64,000 nt of DNA from NCBI RefSeq assembly GCF_032854445.1, contig NC_088302.1:3901338-3965337 (forward strand). The letters run 5' to 3'. This document shows positions 1,663 to 35,806 of this stretch, one piece after another (within the stretch, counting starts at the first letter, position 1; each line of letters opens with the position of its first letter). This DNA is from Liolophura sinensis (Eukaryota > Mollusca > Polyplacophora > Chitonida > Chitonidae). Below the pieces are notes generated by a model. The model did no database searches, was not told where the DNA came from, and saw only the letters and a program-made list of their open reading frames with translations. Made by a program: the position numbers and the translations under genes.

Positions 1663-1738
1663 TTATCGGTCAAGCTCATGAAGGGAGAATACTCTGGCTG
1701 TTTGGTCTTCTGATGTTGAAACAAGTACACCTCCATCT
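1663..1738 (-). CDS. AAMP: AAMP exon 11 (stop codon)
   Basis: 76 bp, phase 2 to stop (TAA at 1663-1665), residues 373-397. It encodes [19 protein letters not shown] and HELDR, matching the AAMP C-terminus (VVTTSGDHKAKVF). The acceptor is TTTGGTTTTCAG. It is joined to exon 10 across a 16-kb intron. ATTAAA (antisense of 1579-1584) about 80 bases past the stop is a candidate polyadenylation signal. Confidence 0.92.
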
Positions 1739-4700: not shown

Positions 4701-7700
4701 AAAGTGTTCAACAAGGTCATCATTGTTGTCATTTACTGGAATTTCCTGCCAGAATTTCCTCTTAGCAGCGGGGAATGAATCGGCCAGTTTCAGAATATTC
4801 TGGCATTTCACGCTAGGAATTCCTCTTGGTTCATTCTGTGTTGGTGGTGTAAAGTCCAGTCTGAACTTGGGTTTAAGAAAGTCAACTTCCTGGTACATGT
4901 AGTCTCCTTCAAAACCCTCCTTAAACCACATTGCGCGTGAACCTTTACGAAATTCTGCCACTGATATGGAGCTGAGATGAGGTAGCGTTACGTTCTTGGA
5001 CTTTCTATTACCGTGACCGTCCTCAAATTCATAAAAGTCATGGTATTGCATTGTGATTGGCTTGATCTTAGTTCCCGATTTGTCACACAAATCTACGAAG
5101 TCCTGGAAATTACAAATCTCGGGACATTTCTTCATTTTCCTTCCAATGCAGCCATGGACGCTGTCTGCACGCATAAAAGTGTGTCCCCTTTCAAAATACT
5201 TCATTGTGATACTTTGTGGGCCCCAGGGTTGATTGACACACCAACACAACACCGTGTAAAGGACCCAGTTTTTGTTTTGTCCCGTGCAGTTGTCTGCCCA
5301 GAATATCACAAATCTGTCTCACAAAGGCATAAACACTTTATATACGTGGAGGCAATGTCAACTCCTAATCTACCCCTGATAGCCTCATGCCACAAAATAA
5401 CAAAGTCACCGTCTTCTTTTACTGATGCAAATGTCTCATTGAAGACAACTAATCTGCTAACAAAGAAATGTTCTTTGATGGTCATTTTGGGAAGGAGGAT
5501 AACCTTTTGCATATCTAAGTAAATATACTGGTGTTTTCCTTATCAACAGCACCATCGTGGTCTTCTCGATAATGGGTACAGAAAACGTGAGAACATCCTG
5601 ACTGAATTGTCTTTAAAAAAGTTGTCCAATTTGTTGTGATCACATGACCAGAATTAGCTAATGTGATTGGTTTAACTCATATGAGAAATAATTTGACTTG
5701 CTATGTTTTTCCCTTTCAATTGATCCAGGTAAAGAGTGTGAAAGCGCTTCCTGTTGAGAGCTTTTGATCTTGTAGAACCTAGTAAGTGACATGTAGTCGT
5801 ACATTGATCTGGAAAAACCTAGCAAGACGAATTACTAGGTTTTCCCAGATGACTATGTGGTATTTTTCCACATGATATTGACTTACTAGGTTCTTCAAGA
5901 TCAAAAATTCCCAACAGGAGGACTTTCACACACTTTACCTGGATGAAATGAAAGAGAAAAACATAGGAAGTCCAGTTGTGGGCCTAACTCATTTTTCACC
6001 AAAATTTGACTTACTAGGTTTTTCCAGATGACAGGAGCAATGTGTGCAGTGTTTTAAACGATAGGCATGAAAAGCAGACGTCCAATCATATAAAAATGGA
6101 AATCTTTCCAAAACCCGGTAGTGTCTTGCCCGGTCTGGCCAAGTTGTGTGGCTCACTGAGGAGTGACGGAGATGTGAACTACTGTCACTGATCAACTACC
6201 AGTAATCCCCTACGACTTAAGACAACAGCCCCTGCAAGGTATCATGGTATATATTTTCTGAATATGTGTATGAAATTATTGAGAACGTATGTTCACTAAA
6301 AAAAACACACAAGTATTCTCTGATATTAAGTTTACAAACTATTCTGCAAACAAATGTTCCCTACCAGTTTCAGCCATCTACTGATCAGAATGTAAAAAAG
6401 CTTTCTCAAAACAGGGCAAAAACAGGCATAGTTTTTGTCCAAAATGGCCCCAAAATCAATTCTCTTATCTGTATCAGCATTATGGAAACGTATTAAATTT
6501 CAAATCAATTTGATGAATCGCCATGTTAAAAAGTCGAAAACACATGTACTTATGAATGTTTCACCATACATGTTGCTAGTATACCATGTGTACAACAGCA
6601 GTCAGTGTCATGGGTGTAATGAAATATACAAGCTCATAATGGCCATATTGTCACATTCATACAAGCTCATAATGGCCATATTGCCACATTCATACAAGCT
6701 CATAGTGGCCATATTGCCACCTTCATACAAGCTCATAATGGCCATATTGCCCACCTTCATACAAGCTCACAGTGGCCATATTGCCACCTTCATACAAGCT
6801 CATAATGGCCATATTGCCACCTTCATACAAGCTCATAAAAGCCATATTGCCACCTTCATACAAGCTCATAGTGGCCATATTGCCACCTTCATACAAGCTC
6901 ATAGTGGCCATATTGCCCACCTTTCATACAAGATCATAATGGCCATATTGCCACCTTCATACAAGCTCATAGTGGCCATATTCCCACCTGCATACAAGCT
7001 CATAGTGGCCATATTGCCACCTTCATACAAGTTCAGAATGCCATATATAAGCACTGGCATCATTATCCAAAACGAGTCTAGAATTTCTCCTTGCTGACCT
7101 ATCCACTGTGATACAATATGTGAGCCAATAATGATGTACAGACCTGGCCATGTCAAAGTCTAGAATTTCTCCTTGGTCACCTTCCACTGTGATACGATGT
7201 GTGAGTCAATACTGATGTACAGACCTGGCCATGTCAAAGTCTAGAATTTCTCCTTGGTCACCTGTCCACTGTGATACAATGTGTGAGTTAATACTGATGT
7301 ACAGACCTGGCCATGTCAAAGTCTAGAATTTCTCCTTGGTCACCTGTCCACTGTGATACAATGTGTGAGTTAATACTGATGTACAGACCTGGCCATGTCA
7401 AAGTCTAGAATTTCTCCTTGGTCACCTGTCCACTGTGATACAATGTGTGAGTTAATACTGATGTACAGACCTGGCAATGTCAAAGTCTAGAATTTCTCCT
7501 TGGTCACCTGTCCACTGTGATACAATATGTGAGTCAATACTGATGTACACCCTGGCCATGTCAAAGTTTAGAATTTCTCCTTGGTCACCTGTCCACTGTG
7601 ATACGATGTGTGAGTCAATACTGATGTACAGACCTGGCCATGTCAAAGTCTAGAATTTCTCCTTGGTCACCTGTCCACTGTGATACCATGTGTGAGTCAA

Positions 7701-10700
7701 TCCCTGATGTACAGACCTGGGCCATGTCAAAGTCTAGAATTTCTCCTTGGTCACCTGTCCACTGTGATACAATGTGTGAGTTAATACTGATGTACAGACC
7801 TGGCCATGTCAAAGTTTAGAATTTCTCCTTGGTCACCTGTCCACTGTGATACCATGTGTGAGTCAATCCTGATGTACAGACCTGGCCATGTCAAAGTCTA
7901 GAATTTCTCCTTGGTCACCTGTCCACTGTGATACAATGTGTGAGTTAATACTGATGTACAGACCTGGTCATGTCAAAGTTTAGAATTTCTCCTTGGTCAC
8001 CTGTCCACTGTGATACGATGTGTGAGTCAATACTGATGTACAGACCTGGCGACATCAAAGTTTAGAATTTCTCCTTGGTCACCTGTCCACTGTGATACGA
8101 TGTGTGAGTCAATACTGATGTACAGACCTGGCAATGTCAAAGTCTAGAATTTCTCCTTGGTCACTTGTCCACTGTGATACAATGTGTGAGTCAATACTGA
8201 TGTACACCCTGGCCATGTCAAAGTCTAGAATTTCTCCTTGGTCACCTGTCCAGTGTGATACAATATGTGAGTCAATACTGATGTATAGACCTGGCCATGT
8301 CAAAGTCTAGAATTTCTCCTTGGTCACCTGTCCACTGTGATACAAGGTGTGAGTCAATACTGATGTACAGACCTGGCCATGTCAAAGTCTAGAATTTCTC
8401 CTTGGTCACCTGTCCACTGTGATATGATGTGTGAGTCAATACTGATGTACAGACCAGGCCATGTCAAAGTTTAGAATTTCTCCTTGGTCACCTGTCCACT
8501 GTGATACGATGTGTGAGTCAATAGGCCTACTGATGTATAGACCTGGCAATGTCAAAGTCTAGAATTTCTCCTTGGTCACCTGTCCACTGTGATACGATGT
8601 GTGAGTCAATACTGATGTACAGACCTGGCCATGTCAAAGTCTAGAATTTCTCCTTGGTCACCTGTCCACTGTGATACAATGTGTGAGTCAATACTGATGT
8701 ACAGACCTGGCCATGTCAAAGTTTAGAATTTCTCCTTGGTCACCTGTCCACTGTGATACGATGTGTGAGTCAATACTGATGTATAGACCTGGCCACGTCA
8801 AAGTCTAGAATTTCTCCTTGGTCACCTGTCCACTGTGATACAATGTGTGAGTCAATACTGATGTACAGACCTGGCAATGTCAGTCTAGAATTTCTCCTTG
8901 GTCACCTGTCCACTGTGATACAATGTGTGAGTCAATACTGATGTACAGACCAGGCCATGTCAGAGTCTAGAATTTCTCCTTGGTCACCTGTCCACTGTGA
9001 TACAATGTGTGAGTCAATACTGATGTACAGACCTGGCCATGTCAAAGTCTAGAATTTCTCCTTGGTCACCTGTCCACTGTGATACGATGTGTGAGTCAAT
9101 ACTGATGTACAGACCTGGCCATGTCAAAGTCTAGAATTTCTCCTTGGTCACCTGTCCACTGTGATACGATGTGTGAGTCAATACTGATGTACAGACCTGG
9201 CAATGTCAGTCTAGAATTTCTCCTTGGTCACCTGTCCACTGTGATACGATGTGTGAGTCAATACTGATGTACAGACCTGGCCATGTCAAAGTCTAGAATT
9301 TCTCCTTGGTCACCTGTCCACTGTGATACGATGTGTGAGTCAATACTGATGTACAGACCTGGCAATGTCAGTCTAGAATTTCTCCTTGGTCACTTGTCCA
9401 CTGTGATACAATGTGTGAGTCAATACTGATGTACACCCTGGCCATGTCAAAGTCTAGAATTTCTCCTTGGTCACCTGTCCAGTGTGATACAATATGTGAG
9501 TCAATACTGATGTATAGACCTGGCCATGTCAAAGTCTAGAATTTCTCCTTGGTCACCTGTCCACTGTGATACAAGGTGTGAGTCAATACTGATGTACAGA
9601 CCTGGCCATGTCAAAGTCTAGAATTTCTCCTTGGTCACCTGTCCACTGTGATATGATGTGTGAGTCAATACTGATGTACAGACCAGGCCATGTCAAAGTT
9701 TAGAATTTCTCCTTGGTCACCTGTCCACTGTGATACGATGTGTGAGTCAATAGGCCTACTGATGTATAGACCTGGCAATGTCAAAGTCTAGAATTTCTCC
9801 TTGGTCACCTGTCCACTGTGATACGATGTGTGAGTCAATACTGATGTACAGACCTGGCCATGTCAAAGTCTAGAATTTCTCCTTGGTCACCTGTCCACTG
9901 TGATACAATGTGTGAGTCAATACTGATGTACAGACCTGGCCATGTCAAAGTTTAGAATTTCTCCTTGGTCACCTGTCCACTGTGATACGATGTGTGAGTC
10001 AATACTGATGTATAGACCTGGCCACGTCAAAGTCTAGAATTTCTCCTTGGTCACCTGTCCACTGTGATACAATGTGTGAGTCAATACTGATGTACAGACC
10101 TGGCAATGTCAGTCTAGAATTTCTCCTTGGTCACCTGTCCACTGTGATACAATGTGTGAGTCAATACTGATGTACAGACCAGGCCATGTCAGAGTCTAGA
10201 ATTTCTCCTTGGTCACCTGTCCACTGTGATACAATGTGTGAGTCAATACTGATGTACAGACCTGGCCATGTCAAAGTCTAGAATTTCTCCTTGGTCACCT
10301 GTCCACTGTGATACGATGTGTGAGTCAATACTGATGTACAGACCTGGCCATGTCAAAGTCTAGAATTTCTCCTTGGTCACCTGTCCACTGTGATACGATG
10401 TGTGAGTCAATACTGATGTACAGACCTGGCAATGTCAGTCTAGAATTTCTCCTTGGTCACCTGTCCACTGTGATACGATGTGTGAGTCAATACTGATGTA
10501 CAGACCTGGCCATGTCAAAGTCTAGAATTTCTCCTTGGTCACCTGTCCACTGTGATACGATGTGTGAGTCAATACTGATGTACAGACCTGGCAATGTCAG
10601 TCTAGAATTTCTCCTTGGTCACCTGTCCACTGTGATACAATGTGTGAGTCAATACTGATGTATAGACCTGGCCATGTCAAAGTCTAGAATTTCTCCTTGG

Positions 10701-13700
10701 TCACCTGTCCACTGTGATACGATGTGTGAGTCAATTCTGTTGTATAGACCTGGCCATGTCAAAGTCTAGAATTTCTCCTTGGTCACCTGTCCACTGTGAT
10801 ACGATGTGTGAGTCAATACTGATGTACAGACCTGGCCATGTCAAAGTCTAGAATTTCTCCTTGGTGACCTGTCCACTGTGATACAATGTGTGAGTCAATA
10901 CTGATGTACAGACCTGGCCATGTCAAAGTCTAGAATTTCTCCTTGGTCACCTGTCCACTGTGATACGATGTGTGAGTCAATACTGATGTACAGACCTGGC
11001 GACATCAAAGTTTAGAATTTCTCCTTGGTCACCTGTCCACTGTGATACGAGGTGTGAGTCAATACTGATGTACAGACCTGGCCATGTCAGTCTAGAATTT
11101 CTCCTTGGTCACCTGTCCACTGTGATACAATATGTGAGTCAATACTGATGTACAGACCTGGCCATGTCAAAGTCTAGAATTTCTCCTTGGTCACCTGTCC
11201 ACTGTGATACGATGTGTGAGTCAATACTGATGTACAGACCTGGCCATGTCAGTCTAGAATTTCTCCTTGGTCACCTGTCCACTGTGATACAATGTGTGAG
11301 TCAATACTGATGTACAGACCTGGGAAGGTCAAAGTCCAGAATTTCTCCTTGGTCACCTGTCCACTGTGATACGATGTGTGAGTCAATACTGATGTACAGA
11401 CCTGGCAATGTCAAAGTCTAGAATTTCTCCTTGGTCACCTGTCCACTGTGATACAATGTGTGAGTCAATACTGATGTACAGACCTGGCCATGTCAAAGTC
11501 TAGAATTTCTCCTTGGTGACCTGTCCACTGTGATACAATGTGTGAGTCAATACTGATGTACAGACCTGGCCATGTCAAAGTCTAGAATTTCTCCATGGTC
11601 ACCTGTCTACTGTGATACAATATGTGAGTCAATACTGTTGTACAGACCTGGCGACATCAAAGTTTAGAATTTCTCCTTGGTCACCTGTCCACTGTGATAC
11701 GATGTGTGAGTCAATACTGATGTACAGACCTGGCAATGTCAGTCTAGAATTTCTCCTTGGTCACCTGTCGACTGTGATACAATGTGTGAGTCAATACTGA
11801 TGTACAGACCTGGCCATGTCAAAGTCTAGAATTTCTCCTTGGTCACCTGTCCACTGTGATACAATATGTGAGTCAATACTGATGTACAGACCTGGCGACA
11901 TCAAAGTTTAGAATTTCTCCTTGGTCACCTGTCCACTGTGATACGATATGTGAGTCAATACTGATGTACAGACCTGGCCATGTCAAAGTTTAGAATTTCT
12001 CCTTGGTCACCTGTCCACTGTGATACAATGTGTGAGTCAATACTGATGTACAGACCTGGCAATGTCAAAGTCTAGAATTTCTCCTTGGTCACCTGTCCAC
12101 TGTGATACGATGTGTGAGTCAATACTGATGTACAGACCTGGCCATGTCAAAGTCTAGAATTTCTCCTTGGTCACCTGTCCACTGTGATACAATGTGTGAG
12201 TCAATACTGATGTACAGACCTGGCCATGTCAAAGTCTAGAATTTCTCCTTGGTCACCTGTCCACTGTGATACAATGTGTGAGTTAATACTGATGTACAGA
12301 CCGGGCAATGTCAAAGTCTAGAATTTCTCCTTGGTCACCTGTCCACTGTGATACAATGTGTGAGTCAATACTGATGTACAGACCTGGCCATGTCAAAGTC
12401 TAGAATTTCTCCTTCGTGACCTGTCCACGGTGATACAATGTGTGAGTCAATACTGATGTACAGACCTGGCAATGTCAAGGTCTAGAATTTCTCCTTGGTC
12501 ACCTGTTCACTGTGATACAATGTGTGAGTCAATACTGATGTACAGACCTGGTCATGTCAAAGTCTAGAATTTCTCCTTGGTGACCTGTCCACGGTGATAC
12601 AATGTGTGAGTCAATACTGATGTACAGATCTGGCCATGTCAAAGTCTAGAATTTCTCCTTGGTCACCTGTCCACTGTGATACGATGTGTGAGTCAATACT
12701 GATGTACAGACCTGGCCATGTCAAAGTCTAGAATTTCTCCTTGGTCACCTGTCCACTGTGATACGATGTGTAAGTCAATACTGATGTACAGACCTGGCCA
12801 TGTCAAAGTTTAGAATTTCTCCTTGGTCACCTGTCCACTGTGATACGATGTGTGAGTCAATACTGATGTACAGACCTGGCCATGTCAAAGTCTAGAATTT
12901 CTCCTTGGTCACCTGTCCACTGTGATACAATGTGTGAGTCAATAATGATGTACAGACCTGGCCATGTCAAAGTCTAGAATTTCTCCTTGGTCACCTGTCC
13001 ACTGTGATACAATGTGTGAGTCAATACTGATGTACAGACCTGGCCATGTCAAAGTCTAGAATTTCTCCTTGGTCACCTGTCCACTGTGATACAATGTGTG
13101 AGTCAATACTGATGTACAGACCTGGCAATGTCAAAGTCTAGAATTTCTCCTTGGTCACCTGTCCACTGTGATACTATGTGTGAGTCAATACTGATGTACA
13201 GACCTGGCCATGTCAAAGTCTAGAATTTCTCCTTGGTCACCTGTCCACTGTGATACAATGTGTGAGTCAATAATGATGTACAGACCTGGCCATGTCAAAG
13301 TCTAGAATTTCTCCTTGGTCACCTGTCCACTGTGATACAATGTGTGAGTCAATACTGATGTACAGACCTGGCCATGTCAAAGTCTAGAATTTCTCCTTGG
13401 TCACCTGTCCACTGTGATACAATGTGTGAGTCAATACTGATGTACAGACCTGGCAATGTCAAAGTCTAGAATTTCTCCTTGGTCACCTGTCCACTGTGAT
13501 ACTATGTGTGAGTCAATACTGATGTACAGACCTGGCCATGTCAAAGTCTAGAATTTCTCCTTGGTCACCTGTCCACTGTGATACAATGTGTGAGTCAATA
13601 CTGATGTACAGACCTGGCAATGTCAAAGTCTAGAATTTCTCCTTGGTCACCTGTCCACTGTGATACAATGTGTGAGTCAATACTGATGTACAGACCTGGC

Positions 13701-16700
13701 CATGTCAAAGTCTAGAATTTCTCCTTGGTCACCTGTCCACGGTGATACAATGTGTGAGTCAATACTGATGTATATACCTGGCCATGTCAAAGTCTAGAAT
13801 TTCTCCTTGGTCACCTGTCCACTGTGATACAATGTGTGAGTCAATACTGATGTACAGACCTGGCCATGTCAAAGTCTAGAATTTCTCCTTGGTCACCTGT
13901 CCACTGTGATACGATGTGTGAGTCAATACTGATGTACAGACCTGGCCATGTCAAAGTCTAGAATTTCTCCTTGGTCACCTGTCCACTGTGATACGATGTG
14001 TGAGTCAATACTGATGTACAGACCTGGCAATGTCAAAGTCTAGAATTTCTCCTTGGTCACCTGTCCACTGTGATACGATGTGTGAGTCAATACTGATGTA
14101 CAGACCTGGCCATGTCAAAGTTTAGAATTTCTCCTTGGTCACCTGTCCACTGTGATACAATGTGTGAGTCAATACTGATGTACAGACCTGGCCATGTCAA
14201 AGTCTAGAATTTCTCCTTGGTCACCTGTCCACTGTGATACAATGTGTGAGTCAATACTGATGTACAGACCTGGCCATGTCAAAGTCTAGAATTTCTCCTT
14301 GGTCACCTGTCCACTGTGATACAATGTGTGAGTCAATACTGATGTACAGACCTGGCAATGTCAAAGTCTAGAATTTCTCCTTGGTCACCTGTCCACTGTG
14401 ATACGATGTGTGAGTCAATACTGATGTACAGACCTGGCAATGTCAAAGTCTAGAATTTCTCCTTGGTCACCTGTCCACTGTGATACAATGTGTGAGTCAA
14501 TACTGATGTACAGACCTGGCAATGTCAAAGTCTAGAATTTCTCCTTGGTCACCTGTCCACTGTGATACAATGTGTGAGTCAATACTGATGTACAGACCTG
14601 GCAATGTCAAAGTCTAGAATTTCTCCTTGGTCACCTGTCCACTGTGATACAATGTGTGAGTCAATACTGATGTACAGACCTGGCCATGTCAAAGTCTAGA
14701 ATTTCTCCTTGGTGACCTGTCCACGGTGATACAATGTGTGAGTCAATACTGATGTATATACCTGGCCATGTCAAAGTCTAGAATTTCTCCTTGGTCACCT
14801 GTCCACTGTGATACAATGTGTGAGTCAATACTGATGTACAGACCTGGCCATGTCAAAGTCTAGAATTTCTCCTTGGTCACCTGTCCACTGTGATACGATG
14901 TGTGAGTCAATACTGATGTACAGACCTGGCAATGTCAGTCTAGAATTTCTCCTTGGTCACCTGTCCACTGTGATACAATGTGTGAGTCAATACTGATGTA
15001 CAGACCTGGCCATGTCAAAGTCTAGAATTTCTCCTTGGTCACCTGTCCACTGTGATACAATGTGTGAGTTAATACTGATGTACAGACCTGGCCATGTCAA
15101 AGTTTAGAATTTCTCCTTGGTCACCTGTCCACTGTGATACGAGGTGTGAGTCAATACTGATGTACAGACCTGGCAATGTCAGTCTAGAATTTCTCCTTGG
15201 TCACCTGTCCACTGTGATACAATGTGTGAGTCAATACTGATGTACAGACCTGGCCATGTCAAAGTCTAGAATTTCTCCTTGGTCACCTGTCCACTGTGAT
15301 ATAATATGTGAGTCAATACTGATGTACAGACCTGGCCATGTCAAAGTCTAGAATTTCTCCTTGGTCACCTGTCCACTGTGATACAATGTGTGAGTCAATA
15401 CTGATGTACAGACCTGGCAATGTCAGTCTAGAATTTCTCCTTGGTCACCTGTCCACTGTGATACAATGTGTGAGTCAATACTGATGTACAGACCTGGCCA
15501 TGTCAAAGTCTAGAATTTCTCCTTGGTCACCTGTCCACTGTGATACAATGTGTGAGTCAATACTGATGTACAGACCTGGCCATGTCAGTCTAGAATTTCT
15601 CCTTGGTCACCTGTCCACTGTGATACAATGTGTGAGTCAATACTGATGTACAGACCTGGCCATGTCAAAGTCTAGAATTTCTCCTTGGTCACCTGTCCAC
15701 TGTGATACAATGTGTGAGTCAATACTGATGTACAGACCTGGCCATGTCAAAGTCTAGAATTTCTTCTTGGTCACCTGTCCACTGTGATACGATGTGTGAG
15801 TCAATACTGATGTACAGACCTGGCCATGTCAAAGTCTAGAATTTCTCCTTGGTGACCTGTTCACTGTGATACGATGTGTGAGTCAATACTGATGTATAGA
15901 CCTGGCCATGTCAAAGTCTAGAATTTCTCCTTGGTCACCTGTCCACTGTGATACGATGTGTGAGTCAATACTGATGTACAGACCTGGCCATGTCAAAGTC
16001 TAGAATTTCTCTTTGGTCACCTGTCCACTGTGATACGATGTGTGAGTCAATACTGATGTACAGACCTGGCCATGTCAAAGTCTAGAATTTCTCCTTGGTC
16101 ACCTGTCCACTGTGATATGATGTGTGAGTCAATACTGATGTACAGACCTGGCCATGTCAAAGTTTAGAATTTCTCCTTGGTCACCTGTCCACTGTGATAC
16201 AATGTGTGAGTCAATTCTGATGTACAGACCTGGCCATGTCAAAGTCTAGAATTTCTCCTTGGTCACCTGTCCACTGTGATACAATGTGTGAGTCAATACT
16301 GATGTACAGACCTGGCCATGTCAAAGTCTAGAATTTCTCCTTGGTGACCTGTCCACTGTGATACAATGTGTGAGTCAATACTGATGTACAGACCTGGCCA
16401 TGTCAAAGTCTAGAATTTCTCCTTGGTCACCTGTCCACTGTGATACAATGTGTGAGTCAATACTGATGTACAGACCTGGCAATGTCAAAGTCTAGAATTT
16501 CTCCTTGGTCACCTGTCCACTGTGATACAATGTGTGAGTCAATACTGATGTACAGACCTGGCCATGTCAAAGTCTAGAATTTCTCCTTGGTCACCTGTCC
16601 ACTGTGATACAATGTGTGAGTCAATACTGATGTACAGACCTGGCCATGTCAAAGTCTAGAATTTCTCCTTGGTCACCTGTCCACGGTGATACAATGTGTG

Positions 16701-19700
16701 AGTCAATACTGATGTATATACCTGGCCATGTCAAAGTCTAGAATTTCTCCTTGGTCACCTGTCCACTGTGATACAATGTGTGAGTCAATACTGATGTACA
16801 GACCTGGCCATGTCAAAGTCTAGAATTTCTCCTTGGTCACCTGTCCACTGTGATACAATGTGTGAGTCAATACTGATGTACAGACCTGGCAATGTCAGTC
16901 TAGAATTTCTCCTTGGTCACCTGTCCACTGTGATACGATGTGTGAGTCAATACTGATGTACAGACCTGGCCATGTCAAAGTCTAGAATTTCTCCTTGGTC
17001 ACCTGTCCACTGTGATACGATGTGTGAGTCAATACTGATGTACAGACCTGGCCATGTCAAAGTCTAGAATTTCTCCTTGGTCACCTGTCCACTGTGATAC
17101 AATGTGTGAGTCAATACTGATGTACAGACCTGGCCATGTCAAAGTCTAGAATTTCTCCTTGGTCACCTGTCCACTGTGATACAATGTGTGAGTCAATACT
17201 GATGTACAGACCTGGCCATGTCAAAGTCTAGAATTTCTCCTTGGTCACCTGTCCACTGTGATACAATGTGTGAGTCAATACTGATGTACAGACCTGGCCA
17301 TGTCAAAGTCTAGAATTTCTTCTTGGTCACCTGTCCACTGTGATACGATGTGTGAGTCAATACTGATGTACAGACCTGGCCATGTCAAAGTCTAGAATTT
17401 CTCCTTGGTGACCTGTTTACTGTGATACGATGTGTGAGTCAATACTGATGTATAGACCTGGCCATGTCAAAGTTTAGAATTTCTCCTTGGTCACCTGTCC
17501 ACTGTGATACAATGTGTGTGTCAATACTGATGTACAGACCTGGCCATGTCAAAGTTTAGAATTTCTCCTTGGTCACCTGTCCACTGTGATACAATGTGTG
17601 AGTCAATACTGATGTACAGACCTGGCCATGTCAAAGTCTAGAATTTCTCCTTGGTCACCTGTCCACTGTGATACAATGTGTGAGTTAATACTGATGTACA
17701 GACCTGGCAATGTCAAAGTCTAAAATTTCTCCTTGGTGGCCTGTCCACTGAGACACAATGTTGCCTGTTCTCGCATCCCACAACCTGAGAACTCTGTCCA
17801 GACTGGCTGTGTAAATCATGGAGGTGGCAGAGTCCCAGCGCAGTTTCACAATACCGGCCTGAAAAAATGTAATTTTTTAAATTTGTTTTTGTTATACTTG
17901 ACTAACTTTTTCACCGACACATTCAGATTTACATGTTGCTCCATCACAGATCTTCATAACTACTCCTATTCTGTATTCATTGAATGATATTGCCTACCAG
18001 CACTGAATGATATTGCCTACCAGCACTGAATGATATTGCCTACCAGCACTGAATGATATTGCCTACCAGCACTGAATGATATTGCCTACCAGCACTGAAT
18101 GCAAAGACAATAAATCATGTGAACTGGAAGGCGAAATTACCATTAGTTCATTTCTAAGATTTCGATAATACAATTTTGAGTTTATTTTGTGCTAAATTAA
18201 GTTTTTTTAAAAATGTTACTACCTACGAACAAAAGTAAGAATGGAATAGCAAATGATTCTCCACATAAATGTATGTGTATGCTAGTTTAAGCCACCGGCA
18301 TATTTGACATGCAATAAAGACTGAAACGTCATCCTGACCTTAGCTTGAAATGTTTTTCACGCAACCTATAACTACTTGCATCTTAAAGTGCAAACTTAAG
18401 CCAAAAAGGGAAGAATAGGAAACACAAAAACTACCTCTCATACAAATATACATTCACTAATCATTGGTAATTCACACATATTCAAGTGCGTACATTTTCC
18501 CAACATGTATATCCACTAATCATTGGTAATTCACACATATTCAAGTGCGTACATTTTCCCCACATGTATATCCACTAATCATTGGTAATTCACACATATT
18601 TAGGTGCGTACATTTTCCCCACAGGTAATTTTAACAGGGATCATTTCAATTTATTTATTTATTTATTTGATTGGTGTTTTACGCCGTACTCAAGAATATT
18701 TCACTTATACGACGGCGGCCAGCATTATGGTGGGTGGAAACCGGGCAGAGCCCGGGGGAAACCCACGACCATCCGCAGGTTGCTGGCAGACTTTCCCACT
18801 TATGGCCGGAGAGGAAGCCAGCATGAGCTGGACTTGAACTCACAGCGACCGCATTGGTGAGAGGCTCCTGGGTCATTACGCTGCGCTATAGCGCGCTAAC
18901 CGACTAAGCCATGGAGGCCCCTGGGATCATTTCAAGCTTTTACCACAATGTTACTGACCAGAAGTGATATGGGAACACTTTGCTGCTATGTTTCAGGAGG
19001 AATCCAGAATCCTTTACCCCATCCATTCACCTTACGCACAATGTATAAGACAATGCCCCTAAGCATGTATCAAGCCCACAGCAGTTTTAGTTTATATTAA
19101 TCTTGTTAGGTGATGAAGAACAACATTCTACCTCATGTGGACAAGTATGTCGCAACACTTGTGTAGGAACATCCCAGACACACAGTGATCCAGAGAGAGA
19201 GCCTGTGGCGACCAGAGGCTGACTGAAACAAAGCCAAGGTATAAACAAACATGTACACACTTGTGTAGGAACATCCCAGATACACACTGATCCACAGAGA
19301 GAGCCTGTAGCGACCAGAGGCTGACTGAAACAAAGCCAACATGTACACACATTTGTAGGAGCACCCCAGACAGACACTGATCCCCAGAGAGAACCTGTGG
19401 CGACCAGAGACTGACTGAAACAAAGCCAAGGTATAAACAAACATGTACACACTTGTGTAGGAACATCCCAGACACACAGTGATCCAGAGAGAGAGCCTGT
19501 GGCGACCAGAGGCTGACTGAAACAAAGCCAAGGTATAAACAAACATGTACACACTTGTGTAGGAACATCCCAGACACACAAGAGATCCAGAGAGAGAGCC
19601 TGTGGCGACCAGAGGCTGACTGAAACAAAGCCAACATGTACACACTTGTGTAGGAACATCCCAGACACACAGTGATCCAGAGAGAGAACCTGTGGTGACC

Positions 19701-22700: not shown

Positions 22701-25700
22701 TAGGAGCATATTCACACTTGTGTAGAAGCATATTCACACTTGTGTAGAAGCATATTCACACCTGTGTAGAAGCATATTCACACTTGTGTAGAAGCATATT
22801 CACACTTGTGTAGGAGCATATTCACACTTGTGTAGAAGCATATTCACACTTGTGTAGAAGCATATTCACACTTGTGTAGAAGCATATTCACACTTGTGTA
22901 GGAGCATATTCACACTTGTGTAGAAGCATATTCACACTTGTGTAGAAGCATATTCACACTTGTGTAGAAGCATATTCACACTTGTGTAGAAGCATATTCA
23001 CACTTGTGTAGAAGCATATTCACACTTGTGTAGGAGCATCCCACACTCCAGTTTATATCGCATCAAAATTCATCAACGTCCAGTAAATCATCTGCCCTAG
23101 ATCATAACTCCTATAACGCACTTGATTTTCAGACCAGGAATTTTCAGGTTTTGTATGGCTTGTTTTTGTCAATGTTGTATACCAGTACTTGGAAAGTGTA
23201 AATAGAGCAAAAAACTGAGTATTTTTGCCTCACGTTTGACTGAAGCCCACTGTCTCCACACAGTCAGTCTCTAGACTGGCTGGCTTTCCACACTGGAAGG
23301 TTGCCAACACCTGAAACATCAGACACAAAGAAAGAGAATCATGTAGTCATTCAATATTTTCATTTACAAAATTCAAAAGTAAATTAATAAGTAATTCAAA
23401 TGTGTCATACCTTATGTCTGAAACGACTTTAGCTAGGTAATTTAAGTCATGTGACAACACGATTATTGAGAAAAATCTATGAAAAACATCCACAAGAAGA
23501 TACTTGTCAGTGATTATAAATGGTTATCCTGGGAAAAGTCCGCCACTGACAAATTAGGTATCATGTTTGACTTCAGACCTCACTTATCAGGATGTAGCTT
23601 TATGTCATTTACAGTTCAGGTTAGATCTGGATTCAGCCATGATGCATATACCACGAAGGTTTGGTGTACAAAAGCCTTATACCTGACCGCTTTTATTTCA
23701 ATGAAAACTTCCTGAATGGGTTTGTTAAACCCTCTATTAAACAAATAACCTAGAATCACCTCACTCTCTTACCTGTACAGATAATGTATCATTTCTGATA
23801 AACCAGAATGTGACAGTTATGTGTACATAATGTCAGAGATGTGTCAGAAGCAAGTCAAAGAGATGTAACAAGAGCCCAAGGGCTGAGAAATGGGTCTACT
23901 GTTTTTCTACTTTCATATTATTTTTCTTATAACTAATGACCAATTGTCTTCTAGTACAATTCATTGGTCTTTGCCACTCACAAAGAGCCTATCAGTTATT
24001 CTGTCTGTAACGGAGGACCTAGCCTCACCTCATTATGGCACGACGTGAAGGAGAATTCATTGCACCAAAACATCATATTACAATATACTGCAAGATTGTA
24101 GATATTTTCCCAAAATTTTTTTGCAATTAAATCATTACCATTTCTTTTTGTTCGGTTAGTGTGAGCATGAAAATCTTTATTTGTAAGTGGCAACAGATCA
24201 AGGCAACACATCGTAATGCAATACATGTTTTGGCCCTCACACTGTATAGTCGTATCTCAACAGTACACATACAGGCAATGACACATAAAATATATGTACA
24301 ATCTGTCAACCTTTTTTTTTTTTTTTATCTTTTCAGAATTATGTGCAAATGTTCATCACATAAAGCCAATGTAATTAAAAGTTCATTCCTCAATTTAACA
24401 GATGAATTTTTCAATGGAGCATGAAAAACTTTGTATAATAAGTTTGTTGGCATTCACGCAGTTAGAAAGATCAACTATTGGGCAGTAACCCACAGGATTA
24501 AGCAGTGTTACAGATAATTTTCAGAGGTAGTGCAGCACTCCCTACTTTTCCAACAGAGGGAGTATTGGGTAAGCCTACTGCGGTACGCATTATTTGAAAA
24601 TACTCAACATTTCACTATTTTGGGTCCCCTGCAATACATCTGGAAAGTGTGAAGTTGATTGAGAGAAGAGGGGTGAGAAAATCGAAATACACACATGTGC
24701 ATACAGGGATAGGTCTAAATAGACCTACCAGTCATAGAATGTTGTAGTTATACACAGGACTACAAGTATATGTACGTACATGTCGACTGCCCAGAATTAC
24801 GACTTGTCATAACATTCTAGAATAAATTAATTATTTCAGCTCTTCCTCACGAGGTATGAATCTGAATGATTGGGCTACATTTATTTGGTGTATTCCGCTA
24901 ACGCCTACGGTTTCACACCTTCCGCTGATCCGGGTATTAGTAAAAGCGGCTAACACAAAGGAAATGGGGATAATCCGTTTAACCCTGGTGAGGTAGGCGA
25001 TGAGGGAAATTCTGTCAGTAATACAAGAAATTCTGCCGGGAAGTTGAGTGAACAGTGCTCCTATTCGGACACTTGACCAGAATATATAAATAGGTCGTCA
25101 TTCACAGCTGTGAAATCAGCCCCATATGAACAATGAAACAGAATCCTTCCATCTATTTCCAAAACCCTTGATGACGTGGACCTCCATGGAACCTGGACAG
25201 AAACAAAACCTTGGAATCCTTTTCTTCTGGCAAATGATGGCATAGATGACTGGATAGTTCTGTTGGGTACAGCCAGCAATCTTCAGCATCTATGCTCAGC
25301 AGATAAGATATTCTGCGATGGGACCTAGCTGAAGATGTTTGGCTTCAAGCTCTGGCAGAGATTCTCCAAACACTGCCACAGCTCGACTCTTTGCAGACTA
25401 TGTCACTGAAACTTGGATAGTGGATCAAGAGACATGGAACCACTATGGCACAAAGGGACCAAGCACTACAAACCATTTGGAGGTCTGGCATTGAAAGCTA
25501 AACTTGGATAGAGGGAGCCTTCGATCAAGAGACATGGAACCACTATAACACAAAGGGACCAAGCACTACAAACCATTTGGAGGTCTGGCATTGAAAGCTA
25601 AACTTGGATAGAGGGAGCCTTCGATCAAGAGACATGGAACCACTATGACACAAAGGGACCAAGCACTACAAACCATTTGGAGGTCTGGCATTGAAGGCTA

Positions 25701-28700
25701 AATCCCTTGGTGAAGAAAGTCCATCCTAACATTTCTGAGTTCATCATCTTTATCAAGACAGAACAAGCCGCAAATGACGTGAAGATCTGCAACTTGAAGG
25801 CGGGCCAGCTCCTCCTCTTAACAGACGCAAATATAGAAAACTGTATGCCAGATTGACAGACCTTAAAATGAAATTTGTTCAGCAAATGATTGATGTAATG
25901 TGATATGCTGAATGGGTATCACACCTTCTTGCTATATAAATATGTATTCAATATCATCTGCTAAATATTACTGTATTGTTTGTGTATATTCAGTCACATT
26001 GTCTAAAATGTTGCTTATTTAAAAAAATAAATAAACAGCACTGAAATTTATTCAATTTGTTTTGCACATTGACATACTAGATATGTCTATCAATCTCCAG
26101 CCACTGTAGACTTACACCCTCCCCCTCAGTAACCGCATGCGGCGATAATCCAAGTTAATCATACCAGCTTATAACACTTCGGGGGTTGTTAGCCGAATAA
26201 ACCCATTTATTTATTACACATCAGCCTGTAGGCCTCCTGGGTGTATTCCAATAATTGGCTGACAATTTTACTTTTTCATTTTGTTTTGATAGCATGGGCT
26301 GCAGTATTATTTCATTCTATGGCAATCTGCCTCATGCGACTTGTAATTAATATTTACCATACATTAACAACTGCTGTTATGCTAAATCCAAATGTAGGCC
26401 TACATTAGAAGACAAAAATTTATTATTTGTGCGTTATTTATTGGCAGTATATAGAAGAAACCTAAAGTGTTTCTGATGTTCTTGTGATCATGGTATTTCA
26501 TTGCATTAGCTTCTCTCCTCAGAAATCACCGATACATGTAAACGTTGAAAACTGGACCCTCGATGACATTTTCACGTCGCACAAATAACTGACGATTGGT
26601 GTAGAATTAAAACCATACACTGGGTGCGATATTAAGATGATGTAATGCAGTACAGTAGCAGAACTTGCTGTATGGTAACCCAAATGACAATTTTTTTTAG
26701 CCCTTGTTACATCTTCTTCATAGCAAAAACTCTATGTCACAAATACAAATATCACAGTAGTCATTCTCCATGACTGCGAGTAGTGGAACATGAGCCTTTG
26801 CTGTAACACCCATAAAAAAGCCTTCCTTCAAAACCAGTGTTTCATGCACACCTTTCCTGTTTCCGTGTTGGTGAGTTTTGCTGTGCTGTCTGCTGATCCT
26901 GTCACCACTATAGTGTTGTCATGGTGACAATCCATGGCAACCACATCAGCAGTATGGCCGTCATGACCTGCAATAAAGATATGCCTGTAGATATGTGATT
27001 ACATTCTTTCTTGACCACTTGTGAGGCACTTACCGGGCACCTCTACAAGTGCTTTGTAGATTGTACCTGATTCTCAAATTCTCAAACAGTGGGTCATGGG
27101 CTGGACATGGATTTAGTATGATTAAGTACAGAAAAACGGGCTGACAAGCAAACAGAAAATATCAGACACCAAATGTCACTCTGTACTAACTTACATCATA
27201 CATAATTTACATGTAAAATTATTAATTAAAAACAAATAACAAGCGATAAACACTCACCTGTAACAGAGTGTAAACATGTGGTTGTTCGCAAGTCCCAGAC
27301 TTTGACAGTGCCATCTGCATGGCCAGTGCACGCTCGCTTACCTGAGATATAACGTAGAACAAACATTTACAAAAACACACTGCAATACTACAGGGAAACA
27401 ACCTAACAAAAACAAATGTTCAGTTTGCTGCCCCACCTGATGATGAGAGAGGTCTCTTCTGAGGGCTTCTTTCTCATCATGCACAAAGTGTTCTTCATTG
27501 TTCTGTCCATCATTAATATTGTGACACCTATCCATACTGGTATGGGCTACTGTTTAACCACACTGAATCTCATAAATCAGAAATGTGTGCTCAGCTATTT
27601 CTGCACGCAAAATCCATGTATCCTACACACAGAGAATCACAAGTGTCAGCGGGGCGATCTGTAAAGTGACAAACCATGTCATACACAAATGCCTGAAGTA
27701 TCTAGGTATCTGTTAACACAAGGACAGGATTGTTTGTCTTTTTTCTTTCTTCCTCTGTTTTTTACCTTTATAACTGTAAATTATTACCAGTTTATATAAT
27801 TATAAAATTTGATTTACATACTCCGATAACAAGATATCAAGAAGAAAACTTCAACATTTGGATTTACATGGAATCTATCCTGCATGATAAAATTTACCCT
27901 GCTGAGGTAGGCGGTGAGCGAAATTTAAGCATAGGGCATTTTGGGGAAAAGACATTTATGCACCCTCTTAAATCATGTCAATGCAGACACCTGCATAAAC
28001 CAGAAATAAGGGAAAGCCAACCATCAGGTAAGAAACGCCCACATCCCACTGTTGACCCATGACCCTGAAACGTTTTACAGTCACCGCTGGGTATTTTCCA
28101 CATCCACGTATCTCCGTCTGAAGTCCCCACCAGTAATACATGCGCCATCGGGTGCCACTCCAGCCACTGAAACAGAGATGCCCATTAAATAACCACTTGA
28201 ACTCATAAACAATTACGAGAATCTCTCAGAGAATAATTTTACAGTGTCTGCTCTCCGCAATGTTTGTTTTCTAGATTCCACAGCAAGATTTCAGTGGTGC
28301 TAATGATTGTTGCCAATCAAAGCTATCCACCCCAGAGTTTTTGCAGATGTGACCCATGACAACCTTCCATTTCATCATCCATTCTGGGGTGAATCTGAGT
28401 TGAACCGCAGTGGTCTCAGAACAAACTAGTTACTAGATTACTAAACTACCAGGCAAAAGAAAGGTTTCACCCACTTCTTGAGCCCATAAAACAAAAACAA
28501 AGGCAGATATAAGAATTAAGAAGATTGGTTTATAAACAGGAATCATTGTGAAATATTCTCTCAAAAAGGCTTTAAAATACTGGCATTCAATTGGCCACAA
28601 AACACAATGAAAGAGACAAGGGGTCAGAAGAAAAAATTACACAAATGTAAAGTTAACTGGCAAGTGCATGTAAAGTCACAGTATCCACAGAAATGAAGGA

Positions 28701-31700
28701 CTAGAGTCATCAGTAGCGAGTGTGGCCACCCTGGGCATCAATGCAAGCAAGCATACGCCTCCGCATTGACGTTGTCAGTCGCCGGATGATGTCAACAGGG
28801 ATAACGTTCCATAGGTTTAACAGAGCTTGCTCAAGTTCCTGTTGGTTAGTTGGAGGAGGCACCAGCTGTCTCAAACGGCGGTCAAGGTGATCCCAGAGAT
28901 GCTCAATGGGGTTCATGTCTGGTGAGTTGGCTGGCCAGGGCAACACAATGACGTTTGCAGTCTTGAGGTAGTCTGCAACAATGCGGGCAGTGTGAGGTCT
29001 TGCGCTGTCGTGTTGCAAGATCGATCCTCTTGGCTGTTGTTGGAGGAAAGGAAAGACGACAGGTCTCAGTATCTCATCAACGTATCGCTGGCCAGTCAGA
29101 TTACCTTGCACAATAACCCGCTGCGTCTTCATTTGGTCACAAATCCCTCCCCAAACCATGACGCCTCCGCCTCTAAACGGATAAACCTCTCTTACGCAGT
29201 TTGGCGCGAGACGCTCGCCTCTTCGTCGGAAAACTTGAACTCTGCCATCGTTCCTGAATAGACAGAACCTGCTCTCGTCTGTAAACAGCACTCTCGCCCA
29301 GTCACGTCGCTGCCACCGACGTACAATACGTGCCCATCGCAATCTGCGTTGACGGTGTAAAAGGGTCAAGGCCATCCCACGGAAGGGGCGGTAAGGTCGT
29401 AAACCAGCTGAACGAAGACGACGCAGTGTTGTTCTGGGGCTGATGACATGGCCTAGTGCCGTCGCCGCTGTTGACGTCGCCGTGACGAATCGGTTTCGGA
29501 ATGGATCTGCCGGATGTAGCGATCTTCAGCCGCAGTTGTTACCCTCGGTCTTCCCGATCTTGGTCTGTCTTGGATCTGGCCTGTCTGCTGATAGCGTATC
29601 AACAACCTCCTGATGGTGGTTTGGCTACAGTTGAACGTTCTTGCAATGTGACGTTGCGAGACTCCCATTGTGGACATACCGATGGCCTGGTCTCGTTGCG
29701 CTTGCGTAAGTCTTGGCATACTGTTGGTGTTTTTTCGGTCACTGAATGTCTGCTCTTTCGAGCAAGAGTATTTATGCAACATTACCGCACGTGCATCACG
29801 AGCCATGCCTCAAAAGGATGTTTTGCATGTGGTCGCAATTTCACAATTCCAATTGCTGCGTTCGTGACGATGCGTTCTGGTAGAGGAAACGATGCAGTCA
29901 TACACTAAGTCCTGCTTAGAATCAAACCCACAACCGTGCTTTTACTTTTTTTATGACAAAAAATATGGTGAAACCTTTCTTTTGCCTGGTAGTTTAGTTC
30001 ACAGCTCCGTTAAAAAGATGTACATCATTTGACACATGTGCACATATGTGGTTCAAGGAATGTAACACTCGGTCATGATGTAACATTTCATGCAAGGAAT
30101 CCATTTCATATATTTTGTTCTTTCTGGAGTTTCCAACCATAATTCAAAACACACATGTACTTGTACTCACAGCTGAATTCTGCTGAAGTCTTGCTTAAAT
30201 TGACAGAAAACACTGCCTGCATGAGGGGCTTTGGAATCATTCCAAAAGTGGGTGAGTTAAGTATCAAATTAGAGGAGGGTCCAATGAACAATGGTTGCTC
30301 TCTAGAATGGCAGTGAGTACGGTCAGGCAACTCAAAGCTCCAAACTTAAAGTGAAATACACTATGTATAAGATGACATATTCTTGAGACCAGAGATAACC
30401 TCCAAAAAAATAAACAAATAACTATGGACATACCTCAATATCAGAGCAGTGAAATGCCCAGACCTCCTTCCAACTGCTTACTTCCCAGACCTTAATTAAA
30501 CCACTCATGTCAGCTGTAGCCAGGTAAACACCATCGTGACTGAAGCCCACGCTCGTAACTGAGTCTGTGTGACCTGTCAACATCAAAAGGTAAACACTAT
30601 CATGACTAAAGCCCACGCTTGTCACTGAGTCTGTGTGACCTGTCAACATCAAAAGATAAACACCATCATGACTGAAGCCCACACTCATCACTGAGTCTGT
30701 GTGACATGTCAACATCAACAATCACCAGCTTCAGATGAACACCATCGTGACTGAAGCCCACTCTCGTCACTGAGCCTGTGTGACATGTCAACATCAAAAG
30801 ATAAACACCATCATGAATGAAGCCCACTCTCGTCACTGAGTCAGCTTCAGATGAAGACCATCGTGATTGAAGCCCATGCTCATTGCTGAGCCTGTGTGAC
30901 CTGTCAACATCAAAAGATAAACACCATCATGACCGAAGCCCACACTCATCACTGAGCCTGTGTGACCTGTCAACATCAAAAGATAAACACCATCATGAAT
31001 GAAGCCCACTCTCGTCACTGAGTCTGCGTGACATGTCAACATCAACAATCACCAGCTTCAGATGAACACCATCGTGACTGAAGCCCACTCTCGTCACTGA
31101 GCCTGTGTGACATGTCAACATCAAAAGATAAACACCATCATGAATGAAGCCCACTCTCGTCACTTAGTCTGCATGACATGTCAACATAAACAATCACCAG
31201 CTTCAAATAAACACCATCATGACTGAAGATCCCACTGGTCAATGTGTCTGTGTGACCTGTCAACATCAACAATCCCCAGCTTCAAATAAACGCCATCATG
31301 ACTGAAGCCCACTCTCGTCACTGAGTCTGCATGACATGTCAACATCAACAATCACCAGCTTCAAATAAACACCATCATGACTGAAGATCCCACTGGTCAC
31401 CGAGTCTGTGTGACCTGTCAACATCAACAATCACCAGCTTCAGATAAACACCATCATGACTGAAACCCACGCTCATCACTGAAGTCTGTGTGACCTGTCA
31501 ACATCAACAATCCCCAGCTTCAGATAAACACCATCATGACTGAAGCCCACTCTGGTCACTAAGTCTGTGTGACCTGTCAACATCAACAATCCCCAGCTTC
31601 AGATAAACACCATCATGACTGAAGCCCACTCTCGTCACTGAGTCTGTGTGACCTGTCAACATCAACAATCACCAGCTTCAGATAAACACCATCATCACTG

Positions 31701-34700
31701 AAGCCCACGCTCGTCACTGAGTCTGTGTGACCTGTCAACATCAACAATCCCCATCTTCAGATAAACACCATCATGACTGAAGCCCACGCTCGTCACTGAG
31801 TCTGTGTGACCTGTCAACATCAACAGTCACCAGCTTCAGATAAACACCATCATGACTGAAGCCCATGCTCATCACTGAAGTCTGTGTGACCTGTCAACAT
31901 CAACAATCTCCAGCTTCAAATTAACACCATCATGACTGAAGCTCCCACTGGTCACCGAGTCTGTGTGACCTGTCAACATCAACAATCCCCAGCTTCAGAT
32001 AAACACCATCATGACTGAAGCCCACTCTCGTCACTAAGTCTGTGTGACCTGTCAACATCAACAATCTCCAGCTTCAGATAAACACCATCATGACTGAAGC
32101 CCACTCTCGTCACTGAGTCTGTGTGACCTGTCAACATCAACAATCCCCAGCTTCAGATAAACACCATCATGACTGAAGCCCACGCTCGTCACTAAGTCTG
32201 TGTGACCTGTCAACATCAACAATCACCAGCTTCAGATAAACACCATCATGACTGAAGCCCACGCTCGTCACTGAGTCTGTGTGACCTGTCAACATCAACA
32301 ATCCCCAGCTTCAGATAAACACCATCATGACTGAAGCCCACGCTTGTCACTGAGTCTGTGTGACATGTCAACATCAACAATCACCAGCTTCAGATAAACA
32401 CCATCATGACTGAAGCCCACTCTCGTCACTAAGTCTGTGTGACCTGTCAACATCAACAATCCCCAGCTTCAGATAAACACCATCATGACTGACGCCCACG
32501 CTCGTCACTGAGTCTGTGTGACCTGTCAACATCAACAATCACCAGCTTCAGATGAACACCATCATGACCGAAGCCCACGCTTGTCACTGAGCCTGTGTGA
32601 CCTGTCAACATCAAAAGATAAACACCATCATGACTGAAGCCCACTCTGGTCACTAAGTCTGTGTGACATGTCAACATCAACAATCACCAGCTTCAGATAA
32701 ACACCATCATGACTGAAGCCCACGCTCGTCACTGAGCCTGTGTGACCTGTCGACATCAAAAGATAAACACCATCATGACTGAAGCGCACGCTCGTCACTG
32801 GGTCCGCGTGACATGTCAACATCAACAATCCCCAGCTTCAGATAAACACTATCATGACTGAAGCTCCCACTGGTCACCGAGTCTCTGTGGCCCGCAATGG
32901 TAACCTTTTTCACCTCTATGTGGCCAAAAATGTATACAAAACAGTTCTTATGCAAAAAGAAAAAACAACATAAAAAAAAAACCACAACAAAAGCTACTGC
33001 ATGGTTTGAGCATCGATGAAAAGATTGCCAACAATATGTTAAAATATAACATGTTTGACATCACACTGGTTCAAATATCACAAAACAACATTACATTAAT
33101 TACCAACTTTGTTCTCAGCTTCACATGGACATCCATCAATGTTTTTTTGTGTCCATAATCATTTTTAAAAAATCATCATTCTCTCAAATCAAATAATTTC
33201 TTTCAACACAAATGTACAATTTATTTGTTTGATTGGTGCTTTACGCCCTAATCAAGAATATTTCACTTAGCATTAAAGTGGGAGGAAATCGGGCAGAGCC
33301 CTGGGGGGAAACCCATGCCCATCACATACATGTACAAGTACAATGCTGCTGATGTTAATTTTCTACCTGTGCACTCAAACAGGGTGTTGGCGGAGGAGAC
33401 ATCCCACACCATAGCTCTGTTGTCCTGTCCCCCTGTGACAGCTCTCGCACACGTGGCTGGGTCTACTCGCACACAGAACACAGCATCTGTAATGCAAAAC
33501 AAGATAACCGACATTCATGGCTGTTTACGGCATACATTACATCTTCACACATGTACATCTACACTATTTATTTTGATTTGATTGGTGTTTAATGCCAGAT
33601 TCATGAAAACATCAGTGCGTCTTTGCATGGTTGGTCACGTGTGGACCATACAGAGTGTGTATATGCTGTATATCTCCTATATCTTCCAGTGCTCACAGTA
33701 GGATCTACGTCAAAATACTCTTATCCATCACTGTGTAATGTCAATTAATACTTATTACATATGATTATTAGCTGGTTAACAACTTTTGTCATTAATGTCA
33801 TATTCATTGAAAGAGTAGGTTTCTGTAGACATTTGTATGCATAGTAAAGCAAAAAGGGTGATAACGAAGCCTATAGCCATTATTAACCTTGCTGACATAA
33901 AGATGCATTTATGCAGACTCACTCTATTGGCTTTGTTGTCTTACACATATTTTAACAGTCAGCACTAAACATGCTTCTGTCCTTCTTGTAAGATAGTGTT
34001 TGGTTGTGCACATATATAATGCATCAGTCACATCAGTGAAAGCAGAAAAGTACCTGTGTGCTTTGAAAATATCACATCTGCATTATCCTGCACATCAGCC
34101 TCATCTACCTGTGCCCCTTCTTCAATGTCCAGCTCATCAAGATCACCACCCACACCATTCAAATCTACAGGCAAGCAAAAGACAATCAAAGTAAATGATT
34201 AAGATCCAGTGATGGACCAATTACAGCTCAACTTTTCCAACATTTTAGTCCTTACATCATATTACTTGCTGCATAGCTACCGTAAGCTTACGCCCTGATA
34301 TCTACTGTAAGAGTTGTGTATGCTGTGAGGTCCACTGTAACAGCAGTGTATGCTGTGATGTCCACTGTAAGAGTAGTGTATGCTGTGATGTCTCCTGTAA
34401 GAGTACTGTATGCTGTGATGTCTACTGGAAGAGTTGTGTATGCTGTGATGTCTACTGTATGAGGAGTGTATGCTTTGATGTCTACTATAAACGTAGTGTA
34501 TGCTGTGATGCAGGGATCAGTTTAGCAAATGTTCCATGGCTTGCTATCTTTTACGTTATTTTATAAGTTGCAGGACAAATGTGACCTGTTGTTTTATTTT
34601 ATTACATGTGTTTTCCCTAAACTCTCATTTGAACATGCTCCGGGAATTTCCAAAGAGTATATGGTCACCATCACCACATTACATAAATCCACAAATCACA

Positions 34701-35779: not shown

Positions 35780-35806
35780 TCTGTCTGGTATCACTTGAAG
35801 CAAAAC

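Follow-up and report, generated by a model that had tools for sequence, protein, structure and literature searches.

Why should one gene carry three separate minisatellites, each built on an exon-intron junction, and does this call for a mechanism that duplicates splice junctions? The question is raised by AAMP, a gene of the chiton Liolophura sinensis that lies in a stretch of 64,000 nucleotides (the window; assembly GCF_032854445.1, contig NC_088302.1, forward-strand positions 3,901,338 to 3,965,337). The species was published as Liolophura japonica, a name later corrected to L. sinensis (PMC12441733). We consider that the AAMP arrays are very probably minisatellites of the type known in amphioxus as mirages, situated in an intact gene and recurring in many genes of this chiton. 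Two samples of genes carry this reading. Junction arrays are present in both and are thus found in many genes beyond AAMP, and random placement fits badly, junctions being held about two to five times more often than it predicts, in small samples. The suggestion of an initial annotation that such arrays exceed chance is accordingly upheld, with 8-9 of 23 arrays against 1.7-3.6 expected in one set and 4-5 against 0.9-1.0 in the second.

Anatomy of the AAMP arrays

The predicted spliced model of AAMP is an intact gene of 11 exons on the minus strand, running from 35,806 to 1,663 (34,144 bp). The 11 joined exons give a single open frame, with AG before each exon and GT after the first ten, and they are placed as follows, in positions of the window:

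35701..35806, minus strand: exon 1 (model; ATG inside, exon start uncertain)
34054..34164, minus strand: exon 2
33367..33486, minus strand: exon 3
30434..30573, minus strand: exon 4, beginning with 52 bp that form the last copy of array 3, the functional one
28022..28166, minus strand: exon 5
27258..27341, minus strand: exon 6
26852..26967, minus strand: exon 7
23234..23310, minus strand: exon 8
19132..19222, minus strand: exon 9, whose 5' end forms the functional copy of array 2, the last in the row
17704..17858, minus strand: exon 10, ending in the first copy of array 1, which is the functional one (donor GTCTGT)
1663..1738, minus strand: exon 11, the last exon, which holds the stop codon

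We take the gene to be AAMP from a comparison with a human AAMP protein, to which the predicted protein is related at 47% identity (369 amino acids, E 6e-130). In a PDB search the matches of the predicted protein were WD40 proteins, and none named AAMP stood among the 60 matches listed of 422. Genome searches with two stretches of the locus found no second copy or allele. The arrays lie where they were first annotated (7070-32885), and the gene itself reaches further, since exon 11 (1,738-1,663) and exon 1 (35,806-35,701) lie beyond that interval on either side.

The arrays, the second of which falls into three parts, are these:

7075..17761, minus strand: array 1, 82-bp unit, 130 copies
19155..20092, minus strand: array 2a, 102-bp units with the acceptor and about 68 bp of exon 9
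20032..22523, minus strand: array 2b, 56-bp units (41 by scan) that hold a diverged start of exon 9 and lack the acceptor
22578..23039, minus strand: array 2c, 22 copies, by scan, of a 22-bp unit that is part of the 56-bp one
30522..32901, minus strand: array 3, 32 copies of 66/79-bp units

The unit of array 1 comprises the 53 bp that close exon 10, the GT donor and 29 bp of intron 10. The array occupies 10.7 kb of the 15,965-bp intron, and the real end of exon 10 is its first copy. In array 2a, one scan counted 8 acceptor-bearing copies including the functional one, and another counted 8 extra copies (decoys) besides it; the 56-bp and 22-bp units are further derivatives of the exon 9 start, and intron 8 (4,011 bp) consists almost wholly of array 2. 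In array 3, almost every copy includes the last intron bases, the position of the acceptor and 52 bp from exon 4. A sliding scan gave a spacing of 66 or 79 bp, the exceptions being a single step of 50 and two steps of 80; this array fills most of the 2,793-bp intron 3, and the real start of exon 4 is its last copy.

The three arrays are thus sited as the initial annotation had claimed, each unit with its splice junction (exon 10 donor, exon 9 acceptor, exon 4 acceptor). The three differ from one another in sequence. The measurements of that annotation needed correction: the exon 9 array does hold the junction at 19-20 kb and does not end at 20 kb, its derivatives reaching 23,039; the exon shares of 72 bp (exon 9) and 54 bp (exon 4) were measured as about 68 and 52; and in place of about 14 kb, or 40% of the gene, arrays 1-3 sum to 16,940 bp, or 50%.

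Other repeats lie in and beside the gene. A separate 33-bp minisatellite of 12.7 copies (window 6,626-7,046) starts about 30 bp from the end of array 1. Intron 9 holds a repeat of about 270 bp (window 18,648-18,924) that looks like a short interspersed element; it had 3,569 candidate places at first look and is 94-98% identical at 39 other places among the 40 candidates scored. An open frame in intron 4 (window 28,863-29,309, minus strand) resembles a fragment of a Tc1/mariner-type transposase. An Rfam scan of the window gave no family above threshold.

Junction arrays in other genes

The first sample of other genes consists of 10-kb stretches at 23 of the first 27 WD40 clusters of the genome search, three clusters being left out as probably intron-poor (C1:86038499, C1:9376082 and C4:23059154) and one omitted without a reason (C7:51317180). 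Exons were found with a local WD40 profile and a small home-made gene finder, and were overlaid with the arrays of Tandem Repeats Finder. The second sample comprises 68 exon hits in chaperonin and proteasome genes, each taken with the 215 bp that flank it on either side, in regions picked before their sequence was seen; these are 71 hits less three in long open frames, some other long-frame hits being retained, and all 136 boundaries were counted as visible. The 23 arrays of the WD40 sample are those whose cluster measured no less than 150 bp and whose period was 30 or more, in about three copies upwards; arrays that were smaller or had two copies were excluded. Junction arrays were classed as strict with at least 8 exon bases and as borderline with at least 4.

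A junction is held by 8 of the 23 larger arrays at the WD40 loci under the strict definition and by 9 with the borderline case; the remaining 14 hold none, L004 among them, which begins 3 bases inside an intron. In the second sample there are four strict junction arrays and one borderline among the 68 exon windows. By sample, they are:

WD40 sample, L005: junction array with both sites and a whole exon
WD40 sample, L009 (WDR3): acceptor, 98 bp, 17 decoys
WD40 sample, L015 and L016: acceptor junction arrays
WD40 sample, L018, L022, L024 and L026: donor junction arrays
WD40 sample, L013: borderline, 4 exon bases
Second sample, L036 (CCT5): donor, strict
Second sample, L048 (PSMB1): donor, strict
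Second sample, L080 and L081 (both CCT3): donor, strict
Second sample, L082: borderline, about 5-7 exon bases, about 4 kb from L081 on the same contig and strand

L082 probably belongs to CCT3 as well, at a neighbouring exon. The strict arrays outside AAMP thus number 12, on donor and acceptor sides alike, and the pooled rate is 12 of 390 sampled boundaries. The L015 stretch also contains a 4.2-kb array (L015:5,808-9,997) of 128 copies of 33-bp units, with repeated open frames on the minus strand.

Could all of this be chance, minisatellites being abundant in genes, with seeds that land anywhere and junction-spanning ones that are tolerated? Arrays are dense enough to invite the thought, at 12% of sampled bases. 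We therefore turn to a random-placement model, in which units are dropped in the same loci (254 supported boundaries, 204,950 effective bases). For the WD40 sample it expects 1.65-1.91 of 23 with the annotated boundaries, against 8-9 seen (P 2e-5 to 1.3e-4); if the number of boundaries is doubled to allow for missed exons, the expectation rises to 3.2-3.6 of 23 (P 0.003-0.009), and chance does better still when L005 is also removed, with 7-8 seen against the same 3.2-3.6 (P 0.011-0.033). Taken by itself, the strict WD40 count of 8 of 23 compares with 1.65-3.37 expected (P 1e-4 to 0.009). In the second sample, 4 strict arrays stand against 0.93 expected (P 0.015, the array density being taken from the WD40 sample), or 5 against 0.99 when the borderline one is added (P 0.003). 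Furthermore, in 12 cases an array edge lies in the exon next to a boundary and in 3 cases in the adjoining part of the intron (L004, L030 and L082; P 0.018), by a hand count made post hoc on a listing of boundaries within 60 bp; without L005 the figures are 11 and 3. Chance as the only cause is thus unlikely.

The number of arrays in AAMP itself is another matter. That three such events in one gene are exceptional, as the initial annotation had argued, is not borne out: at the pooled rate, the probability of at least 3 of 20 boundaries in one gene is about 0.025, so that many genes would show three arrays if the rate holds, and CCT3 holds two strict arrays and perhaps a third, borderline. Among the 28,010 protein-coding genes given for the chiton assembly in the available text of the genome paper (PMC11068029), AAMP stands in the tail of the distribution and is not exceptional.

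An excess at junctions is also what one would expect of a mutational process aimed at splice junctions, in which R-loops, transcription-linked breaks or template switching would make the first duplication. The comparison of 15 units (L015 not included) points in the same direction: only one 8-mer is common to three or more of them (shuffled mean 0.1, maximum 2), and with nearly no motif in common, position rather than motif would be the common factor. On the other hand, both donors and acceptors are used and L005 involves a whole exon, so that no one-sided signature is seen, and exons are richer in guanine and cytosine (GC) than their loci (0.48 against 0.38), so that a bias of composition could mimic the excess. 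The GC content of junction arrays is 0.44 and that of other arrays 0.40 (P 0.32), so that GC may or may not account for the excess. A process aimed at junctions as such remains, in our judgement, doubtful. The simplest account of the excess would instead combine raised duplication in exon-containing DNA with selective loss of purely exonic duplications; given a bias to exon-like DNA and the loss of duplications within exons, junction arrays are what would survive.

Proposed growth of the arrays and choice of the splice site

Reading the arrays as mirage-type minisatellites suggests the following sequence of events. First of all, slippage or end joining would duplicate a short stretch across an exon-intron junction in tandem, after which slippage or unequal exchange would multiply the copies. 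Second, growth would proceed towards the intron only, as the copy at the outer edge has to remain continuous with the rest of its exon; the remaining copies would become intron, to be removed by splicing, and would be tolerated since they are intronic. The outermost position of the functional copy follows from this geometry and thus provides no separate evidence. Finally, the real site would be selected by where it lies, most likely through exon definition.

That the real splice site is probably chosen by position is suggested by the state of the decoys, most of whose sites are intact and many of which score as high as the real one. Sites were scored with a simple consensus, using generic weights not trained on chitons. 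The splice dinucleotide is intact in 125 of 126 decoys of array 1, and 110 of these decoys score at least as high as the real donor; by this measure, its own sequence does not set the real site of array 1 apart. The dinucleotide is likewise intact in 8 of 8 decoys of array 2, AG is intact in 20 of 29 decoys of array 3, and the WDR3 array (L009) keeps AG in 17 of 17. In arrays 2 and 3, the predicted real site ranks among the better-scoring ones.

There are 63 distinct units among the 129 decoys of array 1, where adjacent decoys are 87% alike, as are random pairs. Of the 82 positions of the consensus, the functional copy departs from 7, and 6 of those lie in the exon part; the copy scanned last agrees with the consensus at 80% identity in the scanned register. 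At exon 9, the functional copy matches the decoy at 19,531 without a difference over 83 bp, which suggests that coding sequence and array were recently duplicated or are exchanging sequence.

It could be argued that the arrays are functional, the decoys serving to regulate splicing or to add in-frame segments to the protein. The nearest upstream decoys do give predicted stop-free gains, of 22 residues at exon 4 and of 34, 64 or 98 at exon 9. However, the next exon 4 copy, which would add 44 residues, has lost its AG, and the farther decoys tried for exons 4 and 9 shift the frame and then run into stops. Translation continued through the donor of exon 10 would end at a stop after a few codons, and indels and stops are present in decoys; because of this early stop and of the 20 of 129 spacings that deviate from 82 bp, the array 1 decoys do not behave as coding sequence. 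Nor are multiples of three clearly preferred, 7 of 16 unit periods being divisible by three against 5.3 expected. Variation differs little among the three codon positions (0.070, 0.066 and 0.101 in array 3; 0.065, 0.045 and 0.073 in array 1), the third being highest in both arrays. A functional role for the arrays is thus quite improbable.

An assembly artefact is more improbable still: the mean read (8,347 bp, in a haplotype-purged assembly from 14x HiFi data according to the available text of PMC11068029) does not span the 10.7 kb of array 1, so that its copy number is uncertain, and the same assembly contains a concatenated mitochondrial contig, but arrays 2 and 3 are shorter than the mean read and fit within it, which makes error unlikely, the decoys vary (63 of 129 units distinct in array 1), and the same anatomy is found at 12 other places. 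The contig concerned, C99, has seven COX1 matches about 15.5 kb apart, where C632 has one, and is a mitochondrial concatemer, probably produced by the assembly.

Several points weigh against the reading of the arrays as recurring, mirage-type minisatellites. First of all, the correct splicing of AAMP is a prediction, and the nearest decoys of exons 4 and 9 would be in frame and open, so that they might be used in mRNA. Second, the decoys are not uniformly a match for the real sites: in array 2 only 3 of the 8 intact decoys score as high as the real acceptor, in array 3 AG is lost in 9 of 29 decoys and only 5 of the 20 intact ones match the real-site score, and in L018 GT is lost in 5 of 8 (3 of 8 intact). 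Third, the exon annotation was made partly by eye, by one reader aware of the hypothesis, the junction arrays L015 and L018 were recognised in full only by eye, and the thresholds of 8 and 4 bases were set after both samples had been seen. The samples are small, and CCT3 supplies 2 of the 4 strict cases of the second. Finally, the L005 copies may be alternative exons instead of decoys. In that array (L005:1,732-2,169), three copies of a WD40 exon with both splice sites stand in tandem (98, 98 and 89 bp); every copy is open and preceded by AG, and the copies may be mutually exclusive because joining two would break the frame. With L005 removed, the WD40 count becomes 7-8 of 23 (P 1.6e-4 to 0.033). 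L005 is thus a possible bridge between junction arrays and alternative exons.

Mirages in amphioxus and implications for chitons

The original report of mirages is said to be that of Canestro and others in 2002. As defined in the available text of a later paper (PMC3087553), a mirage is a minisatellite-like tandem duplication across an exon-intron boundary, on the donor or the acceptor side, with units of 10 to about 160 bp of which many, not all, keep AG/GT. That text reports mirages in the amphioxus genes Adh3, BflGb6 and BflGb9 (the latter two globins) and others, together with regular splicing and length instability. The phenomenon is therefore already described, and the amphioxus mirage is the closest known system, with the same anatomy in another phylum. 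AAMP arrays 1, 2a and 3 and the 12 strict arrays, of which L005 repeats a whole exon, share with mirages the tandem units that span a boundary and the involvement of both donor and acceptor boundaries, and in the arrays scored (arrays 1-3, L018 and WDR3) many but not all decoys retain AG/GT. The host, on the other hand, is a mollusc, as the initial annotation had supposed, and not a cephalochordate, which is no part of the definition; amphioxus was considered as the host and rejected, the DNA matching the chiton assembly, and the gene order of the 15,209-bp mitochondrial contig is one typical of chitons and other molluscs. Array 1, with 130 copies over 10.7 kb, far exceeds the 3-6 units given there for the BflGb6 mirage. 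The chiton arrays differ, too, in having been seen at 12 of 390 sampled boundaries and compared with chance.

Two further systems bear comparison, each as far as the available text describes it. Human genes in segmental duplications have variable internal tandem repeats at exon-intron boundaries (PMC2812944), which likewise are minisatellites extending to a splice boundary, with a changed gene structure as the result. They modify exons, or may create introns anew, in paralogs of recent origin, whereas in the chiton the predicted gene structure is intact and the copies are intronic. The Rogers model, as discussed in PMC3087553, proposes intron gain by tandem duplication of proto-splice sites; splice signals are duplicated beside the exon in the chiton as well, but no new intron was identified in AAMP, where the arrays lengthen existing ones. 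We met no report of junction arrays in a mollusc in full-text literature of partial journal coverage, which makes this weak evidence. The word 'tandem' is absent from the main text of the genome paper (PMC11068029), as are 'tandem repeat' and 'minisatellite' from that of a comparative chiton paper (PMC12005716), in the text available for each, and the available text on an abalone gene describes a polymorphic 27-bp intronic minisatellite with no mention of a junction (PMC6905558).

The mirages that we found in print concern a handful of amphioxus genes, and their occurrence in a mollusc exceeds random placement in two samples. Close to such arrays, the gene models and variant calls of chiton genomes may contain errors. 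Two old questions become directly testable: does the duplication of junctions contribute to the gain and growth of introns, and what decides the splice site when many near-equal copies stand in a row? Tentatively, we suggest that chitons may have a genome-wide process that preferentially duplicates junctions, convergent with that of amphioxus, leaving about 3% of boundaries beside tandem decoys. If true, such a process would continually supply intron growth, intron gain and exon extension, and it would provide a natural experiment in which the spliceosome has to single out one site, by position alone, among as many as 130 that are nearly identical.

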